From: Myxococcales bacterium
Lineage (GTDB): Bacteria > Myxococcota_A > Polyangia > JAAYKL01
NCBI GenBank assembly: GCA_012522445.1
Contig: JAAYKL010000092.1
Location: 1 to 64,000, forward strand
DNA length: 64,000 bases
Direction of reading: 5' to 3'
Both the position numbers and the translations under genes were made by a program. A model generated the notes under the pieces. The model searched no databases and had not been told where the DNA came from. It worked only from the letters and a program-made list of their open reading frames with translations. Positions 5,380 through 53,073 of the stretch are shown one piece after another (the first letter of the stretch is position 1; each line of letters opens with the position of its first letter).

Positions 5380-8300
5380 ACCTCTCCACTCTTTCGGTGA
5401 AGCGTGGCGTCACCTTCTCCATGATCTTCGCCGCCATTTTCGGAGCGGGCATTTACTCCCTCAACCAGCTCCAGCTCGACCTGTACCCCGAGATGAACTT
5501 CCCGATCATCCTCGTCCTCACCAACTACCAGGGCGCGAGCCCCGAGGACATGGAGACCCTCGTTACGAAGCCCATCGAGTCTGCCGTGGCCTCCGCCAAG
5601 GGCGCGACCAAGATCACCTCCAACTCCAAGCAGGGCACATCTTTTGTCGCCATCGAATTTGACTGGGGCCAAGACATGGACTTGGCGGAAACAGATGTCC
5701 GCCGCAAGCTCGACATGATCAAACGCCTGCTGCCCACTGACAGCGACGATCCCCTGGTCATCGCCTTGGATCCGTCGATGCAACCCATCGTCATGATGAC
5801 CGTCGAAGGGGCCTATCCCCTAGACGAGCTGCGCAAACTCGCCGAAGACGACATCTGCGACCGCGTAAGCCGCCTAGACGGCGTGGCAGCCTGCGAGGCC
5901 ATCGGCGGCCTGGAACGGCAGATCCGCGTCATCCCAGACCCCGCGAAACTGTCGGCCTATGGCATCGACGCCCTCACGGTGTTTGGCGCCGTGGGCTACA
6001 ACAACGTTCAGGAGCCCGGCGGCTACATCGAAGAAGGCTCCTTTGCCTTCACCATCCAAACCCACACGCGCCTGCAAACCGTCGAAGACATCCGCAACGT
6101 CATCGTCGCCTCGCGCCCCAATGCCAGCGGCGTTCCCTCTCCGGTCTACCTGCACCAAGTGGCCGACGTGGCCGACTCCTTTAACGAACCCACCCGCAAC
6201 ATTGAAGTCAACGGACAACCCGCGACTTGGATTGTCGTGCGCAAACAGGCTGGCGAAAACACGGTCAAGGCTGTCGATGCCACCATGGCCGAGCTCAAAA
6301 AATTTGAACTCGAATCCGAAGGCCGGGTGCATTTTGGCACCATCTTCAGCCAAGGTGATTTCATCAAGGACGCCTTAGGCAACCTCTCCAGCAGCGCCCT
6401 GCTCGCCGTGGGCATCACCTTCATCGTGCTGTTCACCTTCTTGGGGAGCCTGCGCAGCGCCAGCATCGTGGCCACGGCCATCCCCCTATCGGTGGTCGCG
6501 ACCTTCTTCGTCATGGACCGCATCGGCATGACCCTCAACGTCATCTCCATGGCGGGTCTGGCGCTGGCGGTGGGCATGCTGGTGGACAACGCCATCGTCG
6601 TGCTCGAAAACATCTTTCGCTTGCGCCAAGAGGGCGTCCCCCTGCGAGAGGCGGCCATCCGCGGTGCGGGCGAAGTATCACTGGCGGTCACCGCCTCCAC
6701 CCTCACCACCGTATCGGTCTTCGTACCGGTGCTCTTCGTACCGGGCATCGCCGGCATTCTCTTTAAAGACATGGCGGTCACCATCTGCTTCGCCTTGCTG
6801 GTGTCCTTGCTGGTGGCCATTAGCTTCGTTCCCCTGGCCGCCTCGCGCCTCCTCGTCAGGCGCCGCGGCAAAGAAGGTGTCGCGGGCCTGGCGCGCTGGA
6901 ACCCCGTGGCGCCCTTTCTCGATCCCTACACGCGCTTCCTTCGATCGCTGCTGCGCCGTCGATGGGTGGTGGCCGTAGGCTTGGTCGCGACCATCGCCAT
7001 CACCGCCCTGATCGCCACCACATTGCCCACCGACTTCATGGCAGAGCAAGACCAATCCATGATCGCTCTGACCCTCGAAACCCCCGTGGGCAGCAACCTG
7101 GACGAAACCACCCGCGTCGCCAAAGAAGCCATCGAAATCATCAAAGAGGTCGTCCCCGAAAAAGATCGCAAGCTCATCTCCATGGAAACGGGTATCGGTG
7201 ACGGCTTCGCTTCCATCTTCTCCAAGGGCATGCACTCGGGCATGGTGCGCGCGCCCCTCACCTCGGTGACCAAGCGCGACACCACGCAGATGCAGTACAC
7301 AGACACACTGCGCGAAAGACTCAGAGAGATCCCCGACCTCAAAGTGTCCGCTGCCGGCGCCGATATGTTCGGTTCCGACATTCAGCTCGAGCTGCGCGGC
7401 CACGATCTCAACACGCTGCGTTCCCTGGGCAACGAGCTCGAAACAAAACTGCTCACCTTCAACCAAGTGGGCGAAGTCACCTTTTCCTTCGCCGAACCCA
7501 CCCCGCAACTCTCGGTCGACTTCGATCGCGAAAAGGCCCTGGGCATGGGCATCAGCATGTCGCAGCTCGGCCAGGCCGTGGCCACCAGTTTTCTCGGTCG
7601 CACCGCGGGGTTCTTCTTCGAGGACGACGACGAAATCCCCATCGTCGTACGCTACGACAAATCCAACCGCGCCGAAGTCGATGAGCTGGGCCGCATCCCC
7701 ATGGCCCTGCCCACGGGCAACAGCGTGCCCATCCGCCACGTGGCCGACATCCGCTTAGAGCCCGGTCCGGTGGCCATCGAGCGCATCGACCAAGAGCGCG
7801 CCGCCACCCTCGACATCAAGCTCAAGGACAGCTACATCGACGAGGGCGGCAAACAGCGTCGCAAAGACCTGGGCAAGGCCATCGGCGTCATCGAAAGCTC
7901 GCTAAAAGACTTCCCCTGGCCCGATAATTTCGGCTACGAGATCGGCGGCGCTGCCGAGGACTTCCTTAAGTCCTTTCGCTACCTGGGCATCGCCCTCATC
8001 ATCTCCGTGCTGCTGGTTTACATGGTCATGGCCAGCCTCTTCGAGTCCTTCCGGCAGCCCTTCATCATCCTATTCACGGTGCCCCTGGCCCTCATCGGCG
8101 TGGTGCTCACCTTCGCGCTCACGGGCAACCAACTCGACGTCTCCGCCCTCATCGGGGTCATCATGCTCATCGGCATCGTGGTCAACAACGGCATCATCAT
8201 GATCGACGCCGCCAACCAGCAGCGCGAGCAGGGCAAAGATCGCCTCGAAGCCATTATCATCGCCGCCCGCAACCGTCTGCGCCCGGTGCTCCTGACGAGC

Positions 8301-37908: not shown

Positions 37909-39576
37909 TTAACGGGACGCGCCGGGGCGAAAATGCAGCGAGATGCGGTGACTGGCGCCGCTGAGGCTCTTGGCAAAAAGCCACCCCGTCGCCTTCTTGC
38001 GGATGCAGCGCGCCAGGGCCGGTGGCACATCGCCGAGCACGGTTGCCTCTCTCACGAGGCCATCCGGCAAAATCTCCAGCGCCAAGATGCCCGTGATTTC
38101 CTGCTCTGTATTGAGCGCCGCGTAACACGCCTGCACCTGGGAGCGATACTTTTGGTAGTCCTGCGCGATGAGGCCGGGGGTGAGCGTTTTGTACAGCGAC
38201 ACCTTCTTGGGCGCCTTTTGCATTTCAACGACGATGTCGCGGTCCGCGTCGGGCGTGAAGGAGAGTTGATACGGGCGATGGTCCGGCGCCTCCACGCGCA
38301 ACTGCACCAAGACGCTGCCTTTGTGCAAGTGAAACGGGTTGTCGGCCACTGCGCTGTCGTCGATGTAAAACCGCGCCGCGTCGGGCAAGTTGTGCAGCAC
38401 AACGCGCACATGGTCGGAGACATCGGCCGTCGTCGTCTTGGCTTCGGTGTCAACGCGCCACGGCGCACGGCGCCACATATATCCGCCCGCGAGCAACAGC
38501 AGGAGCAAGAGCGCCAAGGCGGCCACGCGCAGCGGACCGCGCAATCCCAACGGAGCAGCCTGTGCCGGGCCCGGCAACATGACGGTGGGTGCGTCGTGCG
38601 TCACATGGGAGGCGATCATCGGCGCGAAAGTTGGCGTCCCCAGAGACCCCGTGGCCGTGGTCAGCACCTCGATGGAGGCCCCCAACTGCGCCAGCCCAGC
38701 GTCTCGCTCTTCCCATGCGGACATCTGCGACAACGCCGCCAAAAACGCCTGCGCAGACGCGTAGCGCTCGGCGGGTTCCTTCTCGAGGGCGCGCAGCACA
38801 ATGGGCACCGCTTCCGGTGGAAAGTGCGGGTTGACCGCCAAGGGCGGCTTGGGCGGCTCGGTCAAAATGCTGAGGATGAGGGCGTTGTAATTGTCGCCGC
38901 GAAAGGGCAGCGCCCCTGCCAGCATTTCATAAAAAATACACCCCACCGAAAACAGATCTGACGCCGCCGAAATCTCTCCCTTTCCCCGGGCCTGCTCCGG
39001 AGACATGTAAGCGGGTGTGCCCAGCAGCGCGCCGTCAGCCGTGAGCCGCGTCAGATGCGCCGTGTCAGTGGGCAGGGTGTGCGAGATGCCAAAGTCGATG
39101 ATCTTCACCACTGGCGGTCCATCCGGGGGGCGCGTGATAAAGATGTTGTCGGGCTTGAGGTCGCGGTGAATGACGCCCTGTTCGTGCACCTGCGCCAGCG
39201 CGCTCAGCACCTGCGATAAAATGCCCACGGCCGCCGCAACGGGAATCGTCTGCAAGCGTCCCAGCATCAGCTCCAGGCTCTCTCCCTCCAAGTACTCCAT
39301 CACCATGTAGGGCTCGCCCCACGGCGCCTTCCCCACGTCGCGCAGCGCGATGATGTTGGGGTGAATGATGGCCGCTGTGGTCTCGGATTCGCGTTGAAAG
39401 CGCTTCAAGATTTTCTCATCTGCCAACAGCGCCGCATGCAGCAATTTCACCGCCACCTTGTCGCCGGTTTGCAAGCAGATCCCCTGGTACACCTCCCCCA
39501 TGCCGCCGGATCCCACGACACCGACAAGCTGGTACTTGCCGTCCAAAATTTCTGCGATGCGGTCTTCACTACTCAT
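37909..39576 (-). CDS. Transmembrane Ser/Thr protein kinase with PEGA-like and AgmX/PglI-like C-terminal parts
   Basis: The 555-residue protein has a complete Hanks-type kinase domain: GSGGMGEVY, catalytic Lys44 in VAVKLL, HRDLKPDN (Asp139), DFG (Asp161), and TPAYMSPEQARG. A single membrane helix (ALALLLLLLLAGGYMW, about residues 350-370) separates the cytoplasmic kinase from an extracytoplasmic part. That part has a PEGA-like strand repeat (VRVVLHNLPDAARFYIDDS) and a terminal domain with QACYAAL..ITGILALEILPDGLVREATVLGD, reminiscent of AgmX/PglI or TonB-like C-terminal domains. It probably transduces an envelope signal into phosphorylation. It is divergent from the pilT gene. Confidence 0.9.
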   Translation of the reverse strand: MSSEDRIAEILDGKYQLVGVVGSGGMGEVYQGICLQTGDKVAVKLLHAALLADEKILKRFQRESETTAAIIHPNIIALRDVGKAPWGEPYMVMEYLEGESLELMLGRLQTIPVAAAVGILSQVLSALAQVHEQGVIHRDLKPDNIFITRPPDGPPVVKIIDFGISHTLPTDTAHLTRLTADGALLGTPAYMSPEQARGKGEISAASDLFSVGCIFYEMLAGALPFRGDNYNALILSILTEPPKPPLAVNPHFPPEAVPIVLRALEKEPAERYASAQAFLAALSQMSAWEERDAGLAQLGASIEVLTTATGSLGTPTFAPMIASHVTHDAPTVMLPGPAQAAPLGLRGPLRVAALALLLLLLLAGGYMWRRAPWRVDTEAKTTTADVSDHVRVVLHNLPDAARFYIDDSAVADNPFHLHKGSVLVQLRVEAPDHRPYQLSFTPDADRDIVVEMQKAPKKVSLYKTLTPGLIAQDYQKYRSQVQACYAALNTEQEITGILALEILPDGLVREATVLGDVPPALARCIRKKATGWLFAKSLSGASHRISLHFRPGASR

Positions 39577-43894: not shown

Positions 43895-45583
43895 ATGAAA
43901 GACCGATTACTGGGCCGCGTCATTGCTGATCGCTACCGCTTAGAATCCCGCTTGGGCGTCGGCGGCATGGGCGCTGTCTACCGCGCGCGTCACCTGCTCA
44001 TCGATCGCGCCGTGGCGATCAAAATTCTGCAACCCGAGAGACGCGGTGAAGAGCATTTCCGCGCCTGGTTTCTCCGAGAGGCCCGCGCCGCCAATCGCAT
44101 CAACCACGCCAACATCGTCGACATCACCGACTTCGGCGAAACCGAAGATGGGCTGGCCTACCTCGTCATGGAGCTGCTGGTGGGCGAAAGCCTCTCCACC
44201 CTCATCGCGCGCGGCCCCATGCCCCTAGATGTCACCCTCGACATCATGGAACAAACCACGGCGGCCCTGGCCAGGGCGCACGACCTGGGCGTCGTCCACC
44301 GCGATCTCAAGCCCGACAACATCTACCTCATCAACCGCGCGGGCCGAAAAAATTACGTCAAGGTCATCGACTTTGGTCTGGCGCGCCTATCGCAAGATGG
44401 CCGCCTGGCCGCCAAGGGAGCGGTCTTTGGCACCCCCGAATACATGTCCCCCGAGCAGGCCCGCGGAGAAGACGCCACCCCGGCATCCGATCTCTACAGC
44501 ATCGGCGTCATCATGTTCGAGATGCTCACCGGGCGCTTGCCGTTCAACGCAAAAGATCGCGACGGCTTCATCGAGAGCCACAAACACGCCAAGCCACCGC
44601 GGGCCGACATGTTCAACAAAGACCTCGACCCCAACATTGTCGAGATCATCGCGACGCTCTTGAGCAAGCCGCCCGAAGAGCGCTTTCGAGACTCCCACCA
44701 CTTCCTCGAAGTGCTCAAAACCCTGCAGCGCCGCGTTGCCCCCGTATCGCCCTGGGACATCCGCCAACAGTCCGCAACCCCGCCGCCGCAATCCGCACAA
44801 CCCCTGGCCTCCATGATCGCCTCCACCCTCAACGAAGTGGCGGCCTGGGCCCTGCGCGCCACCATCTTCGGGCGCATGGTGTCCACGGCTTACTCCGGTG
44901 GCGCCGGTCCTGCGCCGGTCATGGAAGCCATCGAGTCCCTCTGGCGTCTCACCGCCGCCTCCGCCAGGTTGGATGGCGAACTCCAAGCCGATGCCAAGCG
45001 CAACGAAGAACTCCTGCGGCGTGGGCGCGATTTTTCGGCCCAAGTGGGACGACGCATTGAAGACCTGTCGCGCGAACAGTCGCGCATCAAGCGCGAGGTG
45101 GCCACCGCCAAAGTCGATCTGGAGCGCCTCAGCGCCGATTACCACAGGGCCGATAAAGAGCTGCAAAACGCGCGCAAAATCATTGCCACCATCGACAAAA
45201 ATCGCGACGAAATGACCGAGGAGCTCCGCCAAGCCTACGAACGTGCCGGCGCCACTGCCGCCAGACGCCAAGCGCGCTCCGAAGCCGTGTCCAAGGTCCA
45301 AGCCAAAATCACCAAGTGGAAAGAAGACATCGCGCGCATTGAAACACAGGTGGTCGAGTACCGCAGCCAACTGGAGCGCCACTCCTCAGCCATCGACGAC
45401 GACTTGGGCTCTAGCCGCAAACGCCTCGACGCCAAGGTACAGGAACGAGAAGCGTACAACCACCGCCTGGAACAAGCGGCACAGTTTTTGTCCGAACACT
45501 TTCGCGGTCGCCCCGAATGCCTCGCGCTCTTTAAAGAACTCGAAGAGCTGGATCGCACCAGCGTGGTCATCGAACCGCGTTAA
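43895..45583 (+). CDS. Ser/Thr protein kinase with long coiled-coil C-terminus
   Basis: The 562-residue protein has a full Hanks kinase domain: GVGGMGAVY, Lys43 in VAIKIL, HRDLKPDN (Asp137), DFGLAR, and GTPEYMSPEQARG. It has no obvious membrane helix. From about residue 345 to 545 the chain is a nearly continuous charged coiled coil (EDLSREQSRIKREVATAKVDLERLSADYHRADKELQNARK; EDIARIETQVVEYRSQLERHSSA), so it is probably a cytoplasmic kinase that dimerises or docks through the coil. The last 20 residues return to non-coil sequence. The substrate is unknown. Confidence 0.9.
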   Translation: MKDRLLGRVIADRYRLESRLGVGGMGAVYRARHLLIDRAVAIKILQPERRGEEHFRAWFLREARAANRINHANIVDITDFGETEDGLAYLVMELLVGESLSTLIARGPMPLDVTLDIMEQTTAALARAHDLGVVHRDLKPDNIYLINRAGRKNYVKVIDFGLARLSQDGRLAAKGAVFGTPEYMSPEQARGEDATPASDLYSIGVIMFEMLTGRLPFNAKDRDGFIESHKHAKPPRADMFNKDLDPNIVEIIATLLSKPPEERFRDSHHFLEVLKTLQRRVAPVSPWDIRQQSATPPPQSAQPLASMIASTLNEVAAWALRATIFGRMVSTAYSGGAGPAPVMEAIESLWRLTAASARLDGELQADAKRNEELLRRGRDFSAQVGRRIEDLSREQSRIKREVATAKVDLERLSADYHRADKELQNARKIIATIDKNRDEMTEELRQAYERAGATAARRQARSEAVSKVQAKITKWKEDIARIETQVVEYRSQLERHSSAIDDDLGSSRKRLDAKVQEREAYNHRLEQAAQFLSEHFRGRPECLALFKELEELDRTSVVIEPR

Positions 45584-45646
45584 CCCATCTGAACGCGCCG
45601 CACCCCCACAAAAAAAGAAAATGTCTTGGAGAGGGAATGCCCTCGG

Positions 45647-46723
45647 TCAATCGACCTTGGCATCAATGGGGCGTCGCTCACCCGGGCGAATATTGACCAT
45701 GCGCAGGGTGCGCTTGCCCGCCGAAACAAATACGACTTCGTGCAGTCCCTTGTTCAGCTCCACTGTCAATGGCGCGACGCCGTGTCTCTTCTTGTCGATG
45801 AAGACTTCGATGGCGCCCGTCGCCCCTGCGGGGGCCCGCACCACCAAGGTACCGTGTTCGGTGTTCGCCCCTGTGGGCGTGTCTTCCGTCGCGGGTTTCG
45901 GGGGAGCGGGTTTTTCGGCGGGTGCGGCTGCCGGAGCCGGTGCCGGAGCCGGTGCTGGCGGTGGAGAGACGGACGCGGGTGGCGCAGCAGGCGGTGGCGG
46001 CGCGGCAGGCGGCGCTCCGGCGGCATCAGCCACAGGTTGTCTCGGCGGTGGCGGGGCGGACGGTTCCGACGCTGTGGGAACATCGGGGGATGGCCTGTCC
46101 GCTGCTGTCTTGCGCGGCGTAGGCGTCGCGGATGCCAGCTTGTTTTTGCGCGGCAATGCCTCCTTGGGCCCAGCGGCAACTTGCGGGCTTTCCACCTCAA
46201 AAACGATTTCATTGTCCGCATCGTCGACGGCGTCTGGCTCGGTCGCAATCCCCCCTGGCGCCGGAACATCCAAACGGCGCAACTTCACTTTGATGAGCTG
46301 TGTATCTTGCAAGCGCACATCTCGCGTCAGCGACTCGTAGCCATTTGCCGCGATCTCAATGCTCCGGAAAACATCATCGGCTTCGAGCTCAATGCTGGGC
46401 GGCGTTCCCTCCAGCGCCACACCATCTAGCTTTACCGCCGCATCTGGTGGAAACACATTCACGGTCAACACAATGCGACGAGACACAGCGGACGCATCGC
46501 TGGGCACCGCGGTATCTTTCAGCAGCGCAACCACCTCAAAGGACACCAGCCCCAGCAGCGCCAAAAAGAGCAACGCGAGGCCCAGGCGCTTCAACGCGCG
46601 CACCATTTTTCGGCGACGCAAATAATCGCCAATCTCCGGCATATCGATAATAACGGCGGGTTGATGCAGCTCAGCATCGGAGCCGGTCGGCGGGGGAAAA
46701 TGGATGAAGGGTTCCGTTGTCAT
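45647..46723 (-). CDS. Membrane-anchored PEGA-domain protein with Pro/Ala-rich stalk
   Basis: The 358-residue protein has one membrane helix (LGLALLFLALLGLVSFEVVALL, about residues 47-68) and then two PEGA-type modules: one at about 85-155 (RIVLTVNVFPPDAAVKLDGVALEGTPPSIELEADDVFRSIEIAANGYESLTRDV) and one at the C-terminus (LVVRAPAGATGAIEVFIDKKRHGVAPLTVELNKGLHEVVFVSAGK). Between them lie about 120 Pro/Ala/Glu-rich residues, a probable wall-spanning stalk. It is the last gene of the sigma-factor operon (21 bases after the barrel protein gene). It probably presents PEGA domains to the cell wall. Confidence 0.75.
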   Translation of the reverse strand: MTTEPFIHFPPPTGSDAELHQPAVIIDMPEIGDYLRRRKMVRALKRLGLALLFLALLGLVSFEVVALLKDTAVPSDASAVSRRIVLTVNVFPPDAAVKLDGVALEGTPPSIELEADDVFRSIEIAANGYESLTRDVRLQDTQLIKVKLRRLDVPAPGGIATEPDAVDDADNEIVFEVESPQVAAGPKEALPRKNKLASATPTPRKTAADRPSPDVPTASEPSAPPPPRQPVADAAGAPPAAPPPPAAPPASVSPPPAPAPAPAPAAAPAEKPAPPKPATEDTPTGANTEHGTLVVRAPAGATGAIEVFIDKKRHGVAPLTVELNKGLHEVVFVSAGKRTLRMVNIRPGERRPIDAKVD

Positions 46724-46744
46724 AAGGTAAAAACTGTAGTGCGG

Positions 46745-48133
46745 TCAGTATGAAAAGACAACCCCGACGCCACTGGAAAATTCATTGCGATGGGCGGGCA
46801 TACCGGTGGCAATGCTGCGAAAGCGCCGCTGCCATTCGGCGAACCAACGCAGGGGGCCCAGGAACTGTTGACCGATGGCCAAGCCCATGAGCGCTTCCCC
46901 GGAAAAGATACCTGCGCCACCCGCGATATCCTGGCCGGCGTAAAAGCCATTCACAAACCACCGAGGGGTGGGCGTGATCGACAATTGCAGCAGCAACCAG
47001 TGCGGGCGATGTCGGTTCAAATAATCGTAGCGGATCAAAAAGTTTGTCTTGGTGCCAAAGTTCATGCGGGACTCCAGCATCAAGCCGTGTGCATTTTTCG
47101 TGTCCATCCGCGGGTTGGCGAGGTGTTCGGCAAAGGTGTTGTGCATGCCTGTCCCCTCGTCCACCGAAAACCAGTGGCGGTTGTAATCGTAAAAAGGGTT
47201 CACGAAGGCGGGGTAATAATCTTCCCCCGCATAGCGATACTCGGCCTGTGCCGACAAGCGAATGTCGCGATTCTCCGAAAGCAAAAAAGTACCCGCCAGC
47301 CCCAAATGCACACCACCGCTGCCGTCCATGACACCCCAGTCCACGTACACACTCGTAAATGCACGGGGCAAATCGACAAAGCGAAACGCCGCATCGAATC
47401 CCACGACGACCAGCGCGGTTCTACCTGTTTCCAGCGCCCGGTGGGGCACACCCCGGTCGCCAAACAACGTCATTCCCAACGCAAAGCGCTGTGCCATCGG
47501 AGCGTCCAAGAACCACGCCAGCGGTGCGGTCTCCAAACGCCCCGCAAAGAGCGCGGGCTCCACGACATTGCTCATGAAAAACGACACGCCCAAGTGCGAT
47601 ATCTGCACATCGACATCGAGTCCGCCTTGGTAGTAGTCCATGTCGGTAGAGTTAAAATACTGCCCGATCAACGCCCCGTGCCCCATGGACACGCCATTGA
47701 GTTCGCCCAGCTCCAACGAAATGCGCAGATCATCCCGCTGATGCTGGAAAGACAACATGCGAACAATGCGCGCCCAGTCCGATGCCTGATCCCAGTCTTG
47801 CTCGCGCAGCCCAGGTGAATCACTCGGGGCATTGTCGCGAACGCGAAAGCGAAGCGGCGCGCTGAGTTGCAACAAAAAGCCCTTGTGCGCAAAACTCTGC
47901 TCTGCGTGCAACATCAAGAAGAGGTCCTCACCGATGGCGCCAAAAGAAAAATCAGCGTGAGATTGAAAGCGCGGGTTTTGGGGCTCCGTCGCACCATCAG
48001 GGGGAGCGGAAACGGCGGTCTCCGATGCCGCAGCAGATTGCGGCTCCACCGCTACAGTCATCGCTTCAGCCGCTGTCGCTGTCAGCGAGACAGCCCCCAC
48101 AAGAGCAATTGAAACGAAAAACAGCCAGCGCAT
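46745..48133 (-). CDS. Exported outer-membrane-type protein in the ECF sigma operon
   Basis: The 462-residue precursor has a signal peptide (LFFVSIALVGAVSLTATAAEA). The mature body has long amphipathic strands, for example FLLQLSAPLRFRVRDN, LRISLELGELNGVSMGHG, RFALGMTLFGDRGVPHRA, RLSAQAEYRYAGEDYYPAF, GLMLESRMNFGTKTNFLIRYDYLNRHRPHWLLLQLSITP, and it ends SGVGVVFSY, a terminal aromatic typical of outer-membrane barrels. I infer an outer-membrane protein of unknown role. An alternative GTG start at 48163 overlaps the upstream gene's stop. It sits between a secreted protein and a PEGA protein in the sigma operon. Confidence 0.7.
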   Translation of the reverse strand: MRWLFFVSIALVGAVSLTATAAEAMTVAVEPQSAAASETAVSAPPDGATEPQNPRFQSHADFSFGAIGEDLFLMLHAEQSFAHKGFLLQLSAPLRFRVRDNAPSDSPGLREQDWDQASDWARIVRMLSFQHQRDDLRISLELGELNGVSMGHGALIGQYFNSTDMDYYQGGLDVDVQISHLGVSFFMSNVVEPALFAGRLETAPLAWFLDAPMAQRFALGMTLFGDRGVPHRALETGRTALVVVGFDAAFRFVDLPRAFTSVYVDWGVMDGSGGVHLGLAGTFLLSENRDIRLSAQAEYRYAGEDYYPAFVNPFYDYNRHWFSVDEGTGMHNTFAEHLANPRMDTKNAHGLMLESRMNFGTKTNFLIRYDYLNRHRPHWLLLQLSITPTPRWFVNGFYAGQDIAGGAGIFSGEALMGLAIGQQFLGPLRWFAEWQRRFRSIATGMPAHRNEFSSGVGVVFSY

Positions 48134-48159
48134 GAGTATCCTGACAGTGTCTTGGGGAA

Positions 48160-48633
48160 TCACGGATGGTGCACGGGCATCGCTGTGCGGCGACAGAGCA
48201 CCACAAACACCCAGCGTCCTTGTTCGCTTTTCAATCCGCCGGCCATGAAAGGTACACCGGGGGTGGCCCGCCCCGCCAAAATCACCGGCATGCGCTCGTC
48301 GCGTTGCAACACCAGCGCGATGTTCAATTGTCCTGCGCGCATCCCTTGAAATTCAAGCGTCCCGCGGATGCCCTGTGGCAACACCAACGCCGTGGGCGCT
48401 CCCAATGCCAACGCGTATTGCCGTTGCTCCACCAAGCGAAAGGTGTCGAACTGCGAAAACGGCGCCGCGCGAAATATCGACGCCCAATCGGACAAGGCTG
48501 GGTCGATGCCCTGTGCATTGGCCGTGGCCTCAATGGTCAGCAAATCGCAGGTGGTGTCAGACGCATTGACAGCAAGGGGAAATCCCCACAGCAGCAGTGT
48601 CAAACAGGCGATGATCCGTATCAATTTCGTCAC
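48160..48633 (-). CDS. Small exported protein in the ECF sigma operon
   Basis: The GTG at 48633 is preferred as start because GGAGGT precedes it at ideal spacing. It gives a 157-residue precursor with signal peptide (LIRIIACLTLLLWGFPLAVNA). The mature part has two widely spaced Cys (TTCDLL and VLCRRT), possibly a disulfide, and strand-rich sequence (QLNIALVLQRDERMPVILAG). I do not recognise a family. The gene lies 25 bases after the anti-sigma gene and its stop overlaps a possible GTG start of the barrel protein gene, so it belongs to the same operon. Confidence 0.65.
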   Translation of the reverse strand: MTKLIRIIACLTLLLWGFPLAVNASDTTCDLLTIEATANAQGIDPALSDWASIFRAAPFSQFDTFRLVEQRQYALALGAPTALVLPQGIRGTLEFQGMRAGQLNIALVLQRDERMPVILAGRATPGVPFMAGGLKSEQGRWVFVVLCRRTAMPVHHP

Positions 48634-48658
48634 AATTACAACCTCCACACTGCGCCCG

Positions 48659-49204
48659 TTACTCGTCAATCCAAATCACGCCGATCGATGCCCCGTTTGC
48701 GGCAGCGATTCGATACGTTGTCGCATGGTGCTGACTGGCGTTGCTAATGGCGATTTCCGATACCGCCGCCACAGGTGCGCTCGCCGCCTGCCATGTATTT
48801 TCGGTGCTCTGCGGGCTATGCGTCTCTAAAACGCGGTGCGTCATGGGCACCATGATCAGCCATGCCGCCGCTGCCATCCCGGCAACCGAAACCGCGGGAA
48901 TCCACATGCGTTTGCGGTGACGGAAAAACTCAGACAAGCCAACGGACCACCGCTCGCGTCGGGATGGGCGCATTTTTTCTTGCCGCACCATATCCATGAC
49001 CGCGCTGTCGACGCCTTCAAAGGAAGCCTCCGCCACGCCATCTTCCGCCATCAACTGCATCAAACTTCCGATGCTTTTCAGGGAAGCGAGCTGCGCGGCA
49101 CTGGGTGGTTCTGCCTGCAACATCCGTTCGACCCGGCGGCGCTGCGAAGGCGACAATTCTCCGTCGTAATACCGAGAGATCAATTTTTCTTTGCTTTCGT
49201 TCAT
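48659..49204 (-). CDS. Putative anti-sigma factor, membrane-anchored
   Basis: The 181-residue protein begins with the short helical motif typical of anti-sigma domains (KLISRYYDGELSPSQRRRVERML) but has no zinc-type HxxxCxxC. A single membrane helix lies at about 101-120 (WIPAVSVAGMAAAAWLIMVP), with a small extracytoplasmic tail of about 60 residues. It should bind the ECF sigma factor in the cytoplasm and release it on an envelope signal, as in ECF pairs generally. Its ATG shares one base with the sigma gene's stop (TGATG), strong evidence for coupling. Confidence 0.82.
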   Translation of the reverse strand: MNESKEKLISRYYDGELSPSQRRRVERMLQAEPPSAAQLASLKSIGSLMQLMAEDGVAEASFEGVDSAVMDMVRQEKMRPSRRERWSVGLSEFFRHRKRMWIPAVSVAGMAAAAWLIMVPMTHRVLETHSPQSTENTWQAASAPVAAVSEIAISNASQHHATTYRIAAANGASIGVIWIDE

Positions 49205-49872
49205 CAGCGCACCACCATGTCTCCATCCAGATAAGGTTCGAGGATTCGTTGCAATTTTTGCCGGGCGTGATGCAAGCGTGACATCACGGTTCCTTTCGAG
49301 ATTTTTAATGCATCGGCCATTTCGGCGTAGGACATTCCCTCCACTTCGCGCATCAAAATAACGGCGCGGTGATAAGGCGGTAAGGTTTGTATGGCCTCTT
49401 GCATCACTTGCGCCAATTCCTTTCGCCCCAAGTTTGTCGATGGATTGACACCCAAATCCGAAGAGAGCACCGCGCGTTGATGGCGATGCGGTCTTCCGTG
49501 CATTTTCTCGTCATACTCATCGTGTCCAGCCTTTCGCGACTTGCGAATGTGATCGATGCAAAGATTCACGACAATGCGATACAGCCATGTGTAAAAACTA
49601 GAAGTGCCCTGAAAGTTTCCCAAGTAACGATAAACTTTGACAAAGGCTTCTTGGGTAATGTCCATGGCGTCGTCCGGGTTTTTCAACATGCCTAGGGCAA
49701 TCGCATATACCCTGCGCTGATAGCGTGTCACCAGTTCGTTGAATGCGGCGTCGTCTCCTTTTTGACAACGCGACACCAAGTCGAAATCGCTGTCTTTTTC
49801 AGCGGCCCGAGCCGATGACAAGCTTGAAGGAGTGGACTGATTTGGGGTTTTGTTATTCACTTTTGTAGGCAT
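49204..49872 (-). CDS. ECF-type RNA polymerase sigma factor
   Basis: The 222-residue protein has region 2 (FNELVTRYQRRVYAIALGMLKNPDDAMDITQEAFVKVYRYLGNFQ, then FYTWLYRIVVNLCIDHIRKSRK) and region 4 (LPPYHRAVILMREVEGMSYAEMADALKISKGTVMSRLHHARQKLQ) with no region 3, hence an extracytoplasmic-function sigma factor of the RpoE-like group. A polar N-terminal tail of about 30 residues precedes region 2. It heads a five-gene minus-strand operon (anti-sigma, exported protein, barrel protein, PEGA protein). The start at 49872 is a choice; the longer frame to 49977 runs into the divergent promoter region. Confidence 0.93.
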   Translation of the reverse strand: MPTKVNNKTPNQSTPSSLSSARAAEKDSDFDLVSRCQKGDDAAFNELVTRYQRRVYAIALGMLKNPDDAMDITQEAFVKVYRYLGNFQGTSSFYTWLYRIVVNLCIDHIRKSRKAGHDEYDEKMHGRPHRHQRAVLSSDLGVNPSTNLGRKELAQVMQEAIQTLPPYHRAVILMREVEGMSYAEMADALKISKGTVMSRLHHARQKLQRILEPYLDGDMVVR

Positions 49873-49942
49873 GGTGCGATGTGGGTTTTGTCTCCATGCG
49901 GCACTGTAGCACCAAGTCGAGACCAACCGCAATGCTGCGGCG

Positions 49943-49971
49943 TTGACAATCGAAAAGCCGCGCGGTAGCTT
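49943..49971 (+). promoter_or_regulatory. Candidate promoter of the Crp/Fnr gene
   Basis: TTGACA (49943-49948), 17 bases and TAGCTT (49966-49971) face the Crp/Fnr gene, whose ATG is at 50003. The -35 is a perfect match to consensus. Confidence 0.5.
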
Positions 49972-50002
49972 TTGCACTCACAACGCCAACAACACAAATC
50001 AC

Positions 50003-50716
50003 ATGAGCACAGATATCCGGACATTGCTGCACCAATTCACGGTCTTCACCGAAGTTCCCGAGGCGCGGTACACCCAACTGACCGAGGCCACCATCACGCT
50101 ACGATTCAGCAAAGGCGACCGCATCTGGGAGGAAGGCGACAACAGCAAATACCTGTATTTTATTGTTTCAGGCTCTGTCAAAATCATCAAACATTCCGAA
50201 ACTGGCAAGGATGTCATCATCGAAATTTTTGGCCCGCGCGACGCCATTGGCGTGTCCGCCATGCTCGTGAGCAAACCCTACATCACCGAAGCGGTTTGCC
50301 TCTCTCCCGTAACCGCGCTCTCCATCCCCAGCGAAATAATCCTCGAATTGCTCGGAGAGGTTCCCGGGATGGCGCTGCGCTCCCTCAAGGGTATGGCCCG
50401 ACGCCAGCGCATGCTCATGCAAAAAGTCAAGGAGATGGCCGGTGGTGGTGTCGAATACCGCATCGCACATCTACTGCTGAAACTCGCCAACCGCATCGGT
50501 GCTGCCGAAGCCGAAAACCAAATCAGCATCCCCATCAACTTATCGCGGCAAGACATCGCCGACCTCGTCGGCACGACGGTTGAAACGGCCATCCGCGTTA
50601 TGAGCCGCTGGCGCAAGCTCAAAATTGTCGACAACGATCGCACCGGTCTGGTGATTCTCGATCGCACCTCACTCGAAAACGTCGCCGCTGGCCTCACGCT
50701 GGATTCCGACGTGTAA
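50003..50716 (+). CDS. Crp/Fnr-family transcription regulator
   Basis: The 237-residue protein has an N-terminal cyclic-nucleotide-binding-type beta-roll (RFSKGDRIWEEGDNSKYLYFIVSGSVKIIKHSETGKDVIIEIFGPRDAIGVSAML), a long dimerisation helix (LLGEVPGMALRSLKGMARRQRMLMQKVKEM), and a C-terminal winged helix with SRQDIADLVGTTVETAIRVMSRW. There is no cluster of N-terminal Cys for an Fe-S cluster as in FNR. Whether it binds cAMP is unclear: the RxS phosphate-site pattern is not obvious. It is divergent from the ECF sigma operon and upstream of the minus-strand AIM24 genes. Confidence 0.9.
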   Translation: MSTDIRTLLHQFTVFTEVPEARYTQLTEATITLRFSKGDRIWEEGDNSKYLYFIVSGSVKIIKHSETGKDVIIEIFGPRDAIGVSAMLVSKPYITEAVCLSPVTALSIPSEIILELLGEVPGMALRSLKGMARRQRMLMQKVKEMAGGGVEYRIAHLLLKLANRIGAAEAENQISIPINLSRQDIADLVGTTVETAIRVMSRWRKLKIVDNDRTGLVILDRTSLENVAAGLTLDSDV

Positions 50717-50814: not shown

Positions 50815-51492
50815 TTATTTGTTGTTTTTCACAGGTCGGAAGGGGTGCAAAAAGCTGGCAAACGCACTGGGACTGCGCGTCTGTGCGTACACCATGCCCT
50901 CGCCCGTAAACTTGGCCACCAAGCCTTCGCCGCCCAAGAAAAGCGACTTAATGCCTCCCACCTTGGTGATGGTGTACTGCACCGAGTCCTGAAAGGCCAC
51001 GATGTGGTCGGTGTCCAAAATGTATTCGCCGCTGCAGCGCTTGGGATAAATCGCCCCATAGGACGAGACGAACACGGTGCCCGGTCCCGTGGCCTTGAGC
51101 AAGAAGAGGCCCAGGCCCGAAAAGAACCCCTTGGCGCCGCCCCACTTGGTGTCGAGCACAACGTCGGGCGTGGCCGCCACATAAGCGGAGGACTGAATCA
51201 TGAGCGAACGCCCCGCCTCCAACTCAAAGGGAATGATGTCTCCAGGGCATCCGGGGGCAATCATCACGACGCCCTCTCCGCCCTCGGCTGTGAACGTGTT
51301 TTGAAAAATCGATTCGCCGCCGAGCAACTTTCGCTTGGCTGCCGCAAACACACCGCCGCGCGCCTCTGTCTTGATTTTGATATTTGACGACATGGCGATC
51401 ATGGCGCCGGATTCGGCTACCACCGACTCGCCCGATGCCAACGTAAATTCCACCATGGCAAAATCGGGAGAACTTTTGATCTCGTATGACAT
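50815..51492 (-). CDS. AIM24/TIGR00266-family protein, copy 3 of a tandem array
   Basis: The 225-residue protein of the AIM24 (DUF124) beta-helix family has FTLASGESVVAESGAMIAMSSNIKIKTEARGG at the start, NTFTAEGGEGVVMIAPGCPGDIIPFEL, and VSSYGAIYPKRCSGEYILDTDHIVAFQDSVQYTITKVGGIKSLFLGGEGLVAKFTGEGMVYAQTRS at the end. No catalytic residues are known for the family, and its function in bacteria is unclear; the mitochondrial AIM24 shapes the inner membrane. GAGGAGG precedes the ATG. It lies 15 bases after copy 2 in the minus-strand operon. It is a diverged paralogue of the two neighbours. Confidence 0.88.
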   Translation of the reverse strand: MSYEIKSSPDFAMVEFTLASGESVVAESGAMIAMSSNIKIKTEARGGVFAAAKRKLLGGESIFQNTFTAEGGEGVVMIAPGCPGDIIPFELEAGRSLMIQSSAYVAATPDVVLDTKWGGAKGFFSGLGLFLLKATGPGTVFVSSYGAIYPKRCSGEYILDTDHIVAFQDSVQYTITKVGGIKSLFLGGEGLVAKFTGEGMVYAQTRSPSAFASFLHPFRPVKNNK

Positions 51493-51507
51493 TTTTTACC
51501 TCCTCAA

Positions 51508-52194
51508 TTAATTTTCTACCGGCGGCAGTCTGGGACCAAGCAATTGGCCAAATTCATTGGGATTCCGCGTTTGGATGAACAGTTTTCCCTTGCCGGTAAA
51601 GCGGCAGACCAAACCCTCGGAGGAAAAGAATGTCGAAAACCAGGACCCCACCTTTTTAATGGTGAAGTCGAGGGTGGGCTCAAAAGCGACGATGTGCCCC
51701 GTGTCGATGATGAAGTTGCCATCGACTTCGATTTCCTTGATGGCACCAAACGCATTGAGGGCCAGTGGTCCCGTCCCATAGGCGCGGATCCAAAACATTT
51801 TCCCCTCGCCAAAAAAGCTTTTGAAGCCACCCCATTTGGCTTGAATCTCAACCGTTGTGGCCGATGCGAGATACGCTTGTTGCTGCACGATGAGCTCGCC
51901 ACCGGTCATCTCGTAAACCATAATATCGCCCGGCAAACTCGGCGCGAAAGTCACTTCACCCGGCGCATTGTCCGCATGAAAGGTGTTGCGGAAAAAGGAC
52001 TCGCCCAAAAGCATGGCGCGGCCAAGGCCTTTCAATAAGCCACCGACACCCTTGCCCTGAGAGGCCGAGGTCTCCATGCGAATGTGGGCGTCTTGCGACA
52101 CCATGGCGCCGCTCTCCGCCATGACCTTGTCACCCACGTCGAGGCGCGCAATGGCCAGTGCAAATGTGGGACTAAATTCAACATCAAACTTCAT
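51508..52194 (-). CDS. AIM24/TIGR00266-family protein, copy 2 of a tandem array
   Basis: The 228-residue paralogue has the same layout: FALAIARLDVGDKVMAESGAMVSQDAHIRMETSAS at the start, NTFHADNAPGEVTFAPSLPGDIMVYEMTGGELIVQQQAYLAS in the middle, and FIIDTGHIVAFEPTLDFTIKKVGSW..SEGLVCRFTGKGKLFIQTRN at the end. AAGGAG precedes the ATG. It is flanked closely on both sides by the other copies (15 and 21 bases), so all three are one transcript. The sequence differs enough from the others that they may form a hetero-oligomer rather than serve as backups. Confidence 0.88.
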   Translation of the reverse strand: MKFDVEFSPTFALAIARLDVGDKVMAESGAMVSQDAHIRMETSASQGKGVGGLLKGLGRAMLLGESFFRNTFHADNAPGEVTFAPSLPGDIMVYEMTGGELIVQQQAYLASATTVEIQAKWGGFKSFFGEGKMFWIRAYGTGPLALNAFGAIKEIEVDGNFIIDTGHIVAFEPTLDFTIKKVGSWFSTFFSSEGLVCRFTGKGKLFIQTRNPNEFGQLLGPRLPPVEN

Positions 52195-52215
52195 GATGAC
52201 ATTCTCCTTCTTGGA

Positions 52216-52914
52216 TCAAGACTTCAGCCTCGGCAAAATCCAACCGATGGTGGCGCCGAGATCCCGGGTTTGTATGTAGAGCTTTCCGTGTCCCAAAAAT
52301 TCGCAGACCAGTCCTTCTCCCGACATCAAGGTAGCTTTAAAGCCGCCAGCGGTCTTGATTTTGTACGTCAGCGAATCCTCGTAGGCCACGATGTGTCCGG
52401 TATCCACAATGAAAGAGCCCTGCACGTCAATGGCGTGAATGGCCCCGTAGGAGTTCACCCACAGATCGCCCGACCCAGAAGCGTGAAGCCAAAATGCGCC
52501 TTCCCCAGAAAACAAGCTCTTAAAGCCACCAAACTTGGTTTTCACCCTCACCGCCCCAGCGGAGGCGAGGTAGCTCGAGGCCTGCACCATTAGGGCGCGC
52601 CCTTCGGCCATCTCGTAGTGGGTGATGTCGCCGGAAATGGCCGGTGCAAAAAGCACCTTGCCCCCTTGGCCAACCGGGGGCGTGTACGTGTTGAGGAAAA
52701 AGGATTCTTTGGCAAAAATCTTTCGAATCACAGCCATGAAGAAGCTGCTGACCCTGCTAAAGAAGCCGCCGAGATTGCTGCCAAAACCCGTCTTGATGAT
52801 CATGCCATCGCTCATGCCAACCATGGAACCCGCCTCAACCGTGAGGCTCTCTCCTGGCGCCAACTCCACTGTGGCCATGGCAAAAGCTGGACTGAATTCG
52901 ATCGTCTGCTGCAT
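52216..52914 (-). CDS. AIM24/TIGR00266-family protein, copy 1 of a tandem array
   Basis: The 232-residue member (start at 52914, with AAGGAGG just upstream) reads FAMATVELAPGESLTVEAGSMVGMSDGMIIKTGFGSNLGG, then NTYTPPVGQGGKVLFAPAISGDITHYEMAEGRALMVQASSYLAS, then FIVDTGHIVAYEDSLTYKIKTAGGFKATLMSGEGLVCEFLGHGKLYIQTRD. It is the promoter-proximal gene of the three and is separated by about 160 bases from the convergently placed MCP gene end. Function is unknown. Confidence 0.88.
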   Translation of the reverse strand: MQQTIEFSPAFAMATVELAPGESLTVEAGSMVGMSDGMIIKTGFGSNLGGFFSRVSSFFMAVIRKIFAKESFFLNTYTPPVGQGGKVLFAPAISGDITHYEMAEGRALMVQASSYLASAGAVRVKTKFGGFKSLFSGEGAFWLHASGSGDLWVNSYGAIHAIDVQGSFIVDTGHIVAYEDSLTYKIKTAGGFKATLMSGEGLVCEFLGHGKLYIQTRDLGATIGWILPRLKS

Positions 52915-53073
52915 GAAAACCTCCTTCGCCTCAAAGCGGCAAAAAACAAAACTTCCGATATTAATCGGGGACTGTAACACAATGGATCGGCGCTTCAAGC
53001 AGAAGATTCTCGCAACCAAATGCCGATGTGCGGCGCCGAAAGCGGTGCTGTATTAATGAGAGATGAGACAACG

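Follow-up and report, generated by a model that had tools for sequence, protein, structure and literature searches.

A candidate sigma-E/RseA-type envelope-stress switch with a third exported component in Myxococcota

In a 64,000-nucleotide stretch of a Myxococcales genome (assembly GCA_012522445.1, contig JAAYKL010000092.1, positions 1 to 64,000; in the following "the window"), five tightly spaced minus-strand genes encode, in this order, an extracytoplasmic function (ECF) sigma factor, a membrane anti-sigma factor, an exported protein (Exp), a predicted beta-barrel protein and a PEGA protein. Throughout the phylum it is the triad of sigma factor, anti-sigma factor and Exp that is conserved, and not the barrel or the PEGA stalk, and the genes downstream of the triad depend on the lineage. 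On balance, the triad probably represents a sigma-E/RseA-type envelope-stress switch that is widespread in Myxococcota, with a third exported component that takes the place of RseB and is unrelated to it. All results are computational and were obtained with sequence and profile comparisons, trees and fold predictions. The window genome has 3.1 Mb in 143 contigs and is 88% complete; like most of the relatives, it is a draft or metagenome assembly, and the same-family relatives are metagenome assemblies labelled Deltaproteobacteria or Myxococcota. The open reading frame (ORF) starts of relatives were assigned by simple rules.

A preliminary description of this region had proposed that the sigma factor operon feeds a self-regulated surface assembly of the exported, barrel and PEGA proteins. 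The extent that it gave for the five-gene block is right to the base. The stop codon of the sigma gene and the start codon of the anti-sigma gene share one base in a TGATG junction (49204), as had been described, and the following intergenic gaps have lengths of 25 nucleotides (anti-sigma to Exp), 26 nucleotides (Exp to barrel) and 21 nucleotides (barrel to PEGA). If the barrel gene starts at the alternative GTG at 48163, a 4-nucleotide overlap with the Exp stop codon is present instead of the 26-nucleotide gap.

The first gene encodes an ECF sigma factor according to its Pfam domains Sigma70_r2 (1e-21) and r4_2 (2e-17), which both score above the cut-off. The protein is 36% identical to Escherichia coli RpoE over 193 amino acids, and with the NCBIfam RpoE equivalog TIGR02939 it reached 151.6 bits versus a cut-off of 236.15, so that it is RpoE-like but misses the equivalog cut-off. 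A tree was calculated from 68 rows, i.e., 59 triad sigma factors, E. coli RpoE and eight other ECF sigma factors of the window genome. The triad sigma factors and E. coli RpoE formed a 60-row group with moderate support (88/64) apart from the eight paralogs, and the sigma factors of the window family formed a 13-row clade with a support of 100/100. The sigma factors of Archangiaceae are about 55% identical to the window sigma factor. Myxococcus xanthus RpoE1 could belong to the same locus.

The anti-sigma factor has a sub-threshold match to the Pfam family zf-HC2 (20.4 bits versus a cut-off of 22.2), and the HxxxCxxC motif of the zinc-binding anti-sigma (ZAS) factors is missing from the window protein. 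The absence of the zinc site had been noted before and is real, but it is not unusual, because the site is patchy among relatives: it is present in the same-family genome G005 (HVAACPQC), in Archangium and in three of 34 anti-sigma factors of the phylum sample. The loss of the zinc site was therefore rejected as a special feature. The N-terminus of the protein could be aligned with RseA over 65 columns (hhalign E 4.7e-4, probability 32%). At its periplasmic end, a V-x-W-I-like tail is conserved in the alignment and in many loci of the phylum. The window genome contains six M50 protease matches.

By reading, Exp starts with a signal-peptide-like N-terminus and has two cysteines beyond it, in agreement with the preliminary description. 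It did not match any Pfam family at E values up to 1. A structure prediction from a 15-row alignment yielded a mean predicted local distance difference test score (pLDDT) of 87 and an alpha/beta sheet fold, with one strand, one helix and seven further strands following the signal-like start. Both cysteines are invariant in 17 Exp sequences (alignment A1), and a disulphide bond is plausible in this family, because one of them is predicted at the beginning of the first strand and the other where the last strand ends. Redox sensing by these cysteines was rejected as the core mechanism, as no cysteine occurs among the 150 C-terminal residues of the matched frame in 27 of 40 loci of the phylum. A Foldseek search did not yield a match for Exp at an E value of 0.001 or better; the top VIA rows were secretins (Z 8.7, root-mean-square deviation (rmsd) 6.1), close to the range labelled as common by the tool, and were disregarded. 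The comparison of Exp with RseB resulted in an hhalign probability of 0.2% and an E value of 0.29, which does not indicate homology with RseB/MucB, and the RseB family had no match in the window genome in a search that recovered the E. coli control.

The distribution of Exp was determined by searching Myxococcota genomes with a profile (A8). Scoring was limited to ten candidates per genome, those with the best first-look result, which makes the number of matched genomes a lower bound and the single copy less certain. Exp was found in at least 270 of 377 sampled genomes (180 of the 235 better assemblies), and all of the 270 except three (G111, G232 and G354) had a single match. With all candidates scored, one match was found in each of 34 chosen genomes. 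Among the 30 strongest Exp loci, 27 contain an RpoE-type sigma gene upstream on the same strand, in three cases only at the edge of the locus (L109, L111, L112), and L100, L103 and L107 have no sigma gene within the flank. These six loci all belong to family f33, and in L131 to L133 of this family the sigma gene is 1.2–1.5 kb away. As a broader sample, 40 spread loci were picked from the better-scoring matches, one to few per family. Of these, 39 (all but L146) have an RpoE-type sigma gene a short distance upstream in the same orientation, and an anti-sigma factor was recognised in 34. Weaker-scoring genomes (34) returned 30 loci, and the sigma gene is upstream in 26; the four misses (L181, L192, L193, L209) are probably contig-end cuts, because these loci are shorter than the full stretch. 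The three locus sets overlap in some genomes. In ten of 34 loci the frames of the anti-sigma factor and Exp, taken with longest-ORF starts, overlap by 4 nucleotides, which suggests translational coupling. Carriers of the triad include Archangium violaceum, A. lansinium and another Archangiaceae assembly.

The following mechanism is proposed. At rest, the membrane anti-sigma factor would hold the sigma factor, and Exp would bind or read the conserved periplasmic tail of the anti-sigma factor. An envelope disturbance would change this contact, the anti-sigma factor would then be inactivated, most likely by regulated proteolysis, and the freed sigma factor would transcribe its own operon. The output would be more of the switch together with a lineage-specific envelope module, which here would consist of the outer-membrane barrel and a PEGA protein that in relatives has a kinase domain, and elsewhere of PBP1, a GT51 transglycosylase or a kinase. 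As an alternative, Exp might be an effector, e.g., a periplasmic chaperone or an envelope-biogenesis factor, and represent the oldest target gene of a sigma/anti-sigma pair that works alone. The small size of Exp, its export, its predicted alpha/beta sheet fold and its position in front of envelope-synthesis genes in several lineages would be in accordance with such a role. However, the third place of Exp is fixed while the other partners vary, and this fits better to a regulator, as do the 4-nucleotide overlaps with the anti-sigma gene; an effector role is regarded as less likely, although its probability is not negligible.

The variability of the partners became apparent at two levels. Within the family of the window, a search of 13 other genomes yielded homologs of the barrel and the anti-sigma factor in 12; the exception is G009, with a completeness of 71%. 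Twelve family loci (L055 to L066) were retrieved via the barrel, and a separate search with the anti-sigma factor led to the same 12 genomes and contigs. In all 12 the genes for sigma factor, anti-sigma factor, Exp and barrel have one order on one strand, with protein identities of about 30–70%, and the operon structure is thus conserved in relatives. The partners in the 40 spread loci, called by profiles and single queries, are different. A PBP1-like gene is downstream in seven (L116, L117, L123, L124, L125, L127, L129), an AsmA/GT51-like gene in five (L120, L122, L123, L126, L129), a kinase gene as the first gene after Exp, or close to that position, in six (L115, L116, L124, L125, L133, L143), and a barrel gene recognised by profile in one (L130). 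In L025, Pfam revealed an AsmA-like gene with Transgly and a weak DUF748 match, next but one a SpoU methylase gene, and a PBP1 gene with Transgly and Transpeptidase domains. These recognised partners would fit an envelope role of the switch. Two side observations concern these loci: at 7100–9478 of L025, a GT51 transglycosylase domain follows a weakly DUF748/AsmA-like N-terminus, and a membrane protein of about 1000 amino acids is encoded divergently from the triad in L025 (1962–4946), with similar proteins in L119 to L123, L134 and L135. The latter is presumably DUF4175-like; Pfam gave no clear match.

The PEGA protein of the window matches the Pfam PEGA family (7e-9; 35.9 bits versus a cut-off of 20.8) in two stretches with a Pro/Ala-rich part between them, as the preliminary description had it. 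The gene after the barrel encodes a kinase-PEGA protein in six of the 12 family loci (L060, L061, L062, L064, L065, L066); in L055 a PEGA-only protein is encoded some 3.6 kb farther downstream, and none was recognised on the stretch examined in the other five. In six of the 12 loci, the PEGA protein is thus missing or displaced. The alignment revealed that the window protein starts shortly before the juxtamembrane stretch QPxVIxDMPE of the kinase-PEGA proteins and shares their transmembrane segment and PEGA domain. The kinase domain is absent from the PEGA proteins of the window and L055. The catalytic loop of the six kinase-PEGA relatives reads NLDLSPxD in five cases and NYYLSPTD in L062, and DFG is changed to DIG in L064. 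Intact kinases (HRDLKPxN, DFG) with a zinc-ribbon-like start are encoded directly after Exp in the class relatives L116, L124 and L125. The PEGA protein corresponds to the membrane/periplasmic half of a receptor kinase, the kinase of which would have decayed in relatives and been lost here, a direction that is deduced from few loci.

These observations are also the basis for a further alternative, in which a Ser/Thr kinase gates the switch by phosphorylation of the anti-sigma or the sigma factor. The PEGA protein would then be a leftover sensor half that acts together with the neighbouring kinase at 43895–45583. The phosphorylation of an anti-sigma factor by PknB is described in PMC8999054. 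The intact kinases directly after Exp, the degenerate kinase-PEGA proteins after the barrel in half of the family loci, and the survival of QPxVIxDMPE in a window protein without kinase would agree with such gating. Nevertheless, a downstream kinase is next to the triad in only six of 40 spread loci, the catalytic loop is degenerate in the family, and the domain has disappeared from the window protein and from L055, and kinase gating is considered improbable.

The barrel has no Pfam match. The AlphaFold2 prediction has a mean pLDDT of 84.5 and about 20 strands, and in Foldseek, porins and further outer-membrane barrels ranked highest (best E 7.8e-7), with TM-scores of only about 0.2–0.3 and rmsd values mostly above 10. 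The VIA rows (Z 11.5–13.8, rmsd 4.5–8.3) contain porins, TOM40, VDAC and BamA/TamA in mixture, and the C-terminal residue is a tyrosine (end GVVFSY). The earlier assignment as barrel-like is in agreement with these models, and the protein is predicted to be an outer-membrane beta-barrel. It has a distant match to Leptospira ImpL63 (NCBIfam NF047543; E 6e-14, 51.5 bits versus a cut-off of 1000). In PMC2698987, ImpL63 serves as a reference for proteins associated with the inner membrane, which weighs against a simple outer-membrane reading of the barrel. Barrel genes also lie close to the triad in f7, f10 and Archangiaceae. An AsmA/GT51-like gene intervenes in the f7 and f10 loci where these were read; in Archangiaceae, the barrel directly follows Exp in L082 and an opposite-strand gene call lies between them in L077 and L078. 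Barrel homologs in L029, L030, L031, L067 and L069 were found without a match to the window sigma factor on the stretch examined; the barrel therefore belongs to a wider, uncharacterised family.

It had been proposed that the sigma factor senses the state of the barrel or the stalk. The data do not support this: nearly all of the 40 spread loci have the triad but no recognised barrel, and half of the family loci have the PEGA protein displaced or lack it. Exp and the anti-sigma tail are therefore the more plausible sensors, and the barrel and the PEGA protein would be exchangeable clients. That the sigma factor monitors the assembly of its own barrel and PEGA stalk, with GVVFSY acting like an unfolded porin tail, would be in line with the barrel after Exp in all 12 family loci and in L130 and near the triad in f7, f10 and Archangiaceae, but it is very improbable with 39 of 40 spread loci lacking a barrel by profile. 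The surface assembly was likewise abandoned as the central explanation, since neither the barrel nor the PEGA protein is conserved along with the triad. A surface location of the PEGA protein is unsupported, because PEGA proteins of this topology are inner-membrane/periplasmic.

A promoter-like pattern, TTGCGR-N14/15-TGNTANAGT, is present upstream of the sigma gene in most same-family genomes. Its exact form has 13 matches over 14 family genomes, ten of them before the operon; a reversed control had ten matches in all, so that the remaining three are at chance level. The window genome contains exactly one match, and this is located before the operon (Table 1). As the pattern was derived from these very sites, only its rarity elsewhere is informative, and this rarity argues that the operon is a narrow, probably self-regulated unit. 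The form with TTGACN had 19 matches in 13 family genomes versus 59 in the reversed control; it is not enriched, and thus the site before the operon is not just a frequent form of promoter in these genomes. A scan of positions 45500–50100 yielded no consensus sigma-70 promoter (1.6 in shuffles) and 11 terminator-like sites (6.3 in shuffles), with no clear operon end. Of the self-regulated envelope structure of the preliminary description, the conserved operon and a likely dedicated promoter remain, and no evidence was found for a surface assembly.

Several results weigh against the sigma-E/RseA-type switch. E. coli RpoE is nested inside the triad sigma factors (94/91), the join of the group has moderate support, and several branches are long; an RpoE-type sigma factor is therefore claimed, and strict orthology is not. 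The similarity to RseA is confined to the 65 columns, and the window anti-sigma factor has no RseA Pfam domain at E values up to 1. Exp has no clear structural relative, and its role is for this reason deduced from its position. No Exp match was obtained in 107 of the 377 sampled genomes, with ten candidates scored in each. The RseB family itself has matches in 14 of 188 genomes of the phylum, 11 of them above the cut-off (best E 1.8e-7; the E. coli control was recovered). Many spread loci have other genes, or none that were recognised, in place of a recognised envelope gene downstream. The promoter-like pattern stems from the regions in which it was then found, its TGnTAnAGT part is similar to the extended -10 element of housekeeping promoters, and in G005, G007 and G008 the pattern is degenerate or could not be recognised. 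A phylum-wide promoter motif was rejected: with the family matrix, four of 39 upstream regions were below 0.05 against 100 single-base shuffles, and about two are expected.

Among known systems, E. coli rpoE-rseA-rseB is similar in the order of sigma factor, zinc-less membrane anti-sigma factor and exported third protein, in the relationship of the sigma factors, and presumably in an envelope role. Unlike in E. coli, Exp is unrelated to RseB by profile and has about half its size, and other genes follow the triad in place of rseC. According to PMC8999054, ECF43 sigma factors have no anti-sigma factor and a replaced DAED motif; with them and with the kinase-linked EcfP/PknT and EcfK/PknS, the triad has in common that a Ser/Thr kinase is near the ECF sigma gene in some lineages. 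In contrast to ECF43, the operon has an anti-sigma factor, and the window sigma factor, by reading, has DAMD at the expected DAED position, so that ECF43-type phospho-activation was set aside. The similarity to Leptospira ImpL63 is restricted to the barrel, which scores far below the family cut-off. RpoE1 of M. xanthus, which is mentioned in PMC6791715 and PMC4320627, is likewise a myxobacterial ECF sigma factor. A description of the triad was not found in the titles and abstract starts of the open-access papers searched; a group number may already exist in the 2021 ECF reclassification.

The features of the region are compiled in Table 1. The CRP/FNR-type regulator gene is divergent from the sigma gene in six of the 12 family loci, too. 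The convergent kinase gene is also a neighbour in L055, L061, L064, L065 and L066, with about 70% identity in relatives. Further genes nearby encode another Ser/Thr kinase (37909–39576, minus strand) and a tandem of three AIM24-family proteins (50815–52917, minus strand; Pfam PF01987, E 2e-68 to 2e-60).

Table 1. Features of the operon and its flanks in the window.
Feature	Position	Strand	Basis and remarks
Promoter-like site TTGCGR-N15-TGNTANAGT	49903..49932	-	30 nucleotides 5' of sigma ATG
RpoE-type ECF sigma factor, 222 amino acids	49204..49872	-	Pfam, RpoE identity, tree
Zinc-less membrane anti-sigma factor, conserved periplasmic tail end VIWIDE	48659..49204	-	Pfam, alignment; topology by reading
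Exp, exported, probably periplasmic, two cysteines	48160..48633	-	start GTG 48633 picked by GGAGG site
Predicted outer-membrane beta-barrel, about 20 strands	46745..48133	-	likely ATG 48133, alternative GTG 48163
PEGA membrane protein, Pro/Ala linker, kinase-less counterpart of kinase-PEGA proteins	45647..46723	-	Pfam, alignment
Ser/Thr protein kinase, convergent, HRD and DFG intact	43895..45583	+	Pfam; putative link to the operon
CRP/FNR-type regulator, divergent, common intergenic region with sigma gene	50003..50716	+	Pfam; start by reading, ORF listed from 49943

Taken together, there is a fair chance, somewhat below even, that in much of the Myxococcota a periplasmic sensor that modulates the anti-sigma factor has arisen independently of RseB and occupies exactly its place, and that one switch has thereby been connected to lineage-specific wall, kinase or porin modules. 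If this is true, a large phylum with complex life cycles and many ECF sigma factors would have a conserved core envelope-stress switch, and there would be an independent solution for the job of RseB. It would then become testable which signals can gate an RseA-type anti-sigma factor and in what way a single switch comes to serve different envelope modules. Exp, a conserved, usually single-copy and uncharacterised exported protein, merits study.

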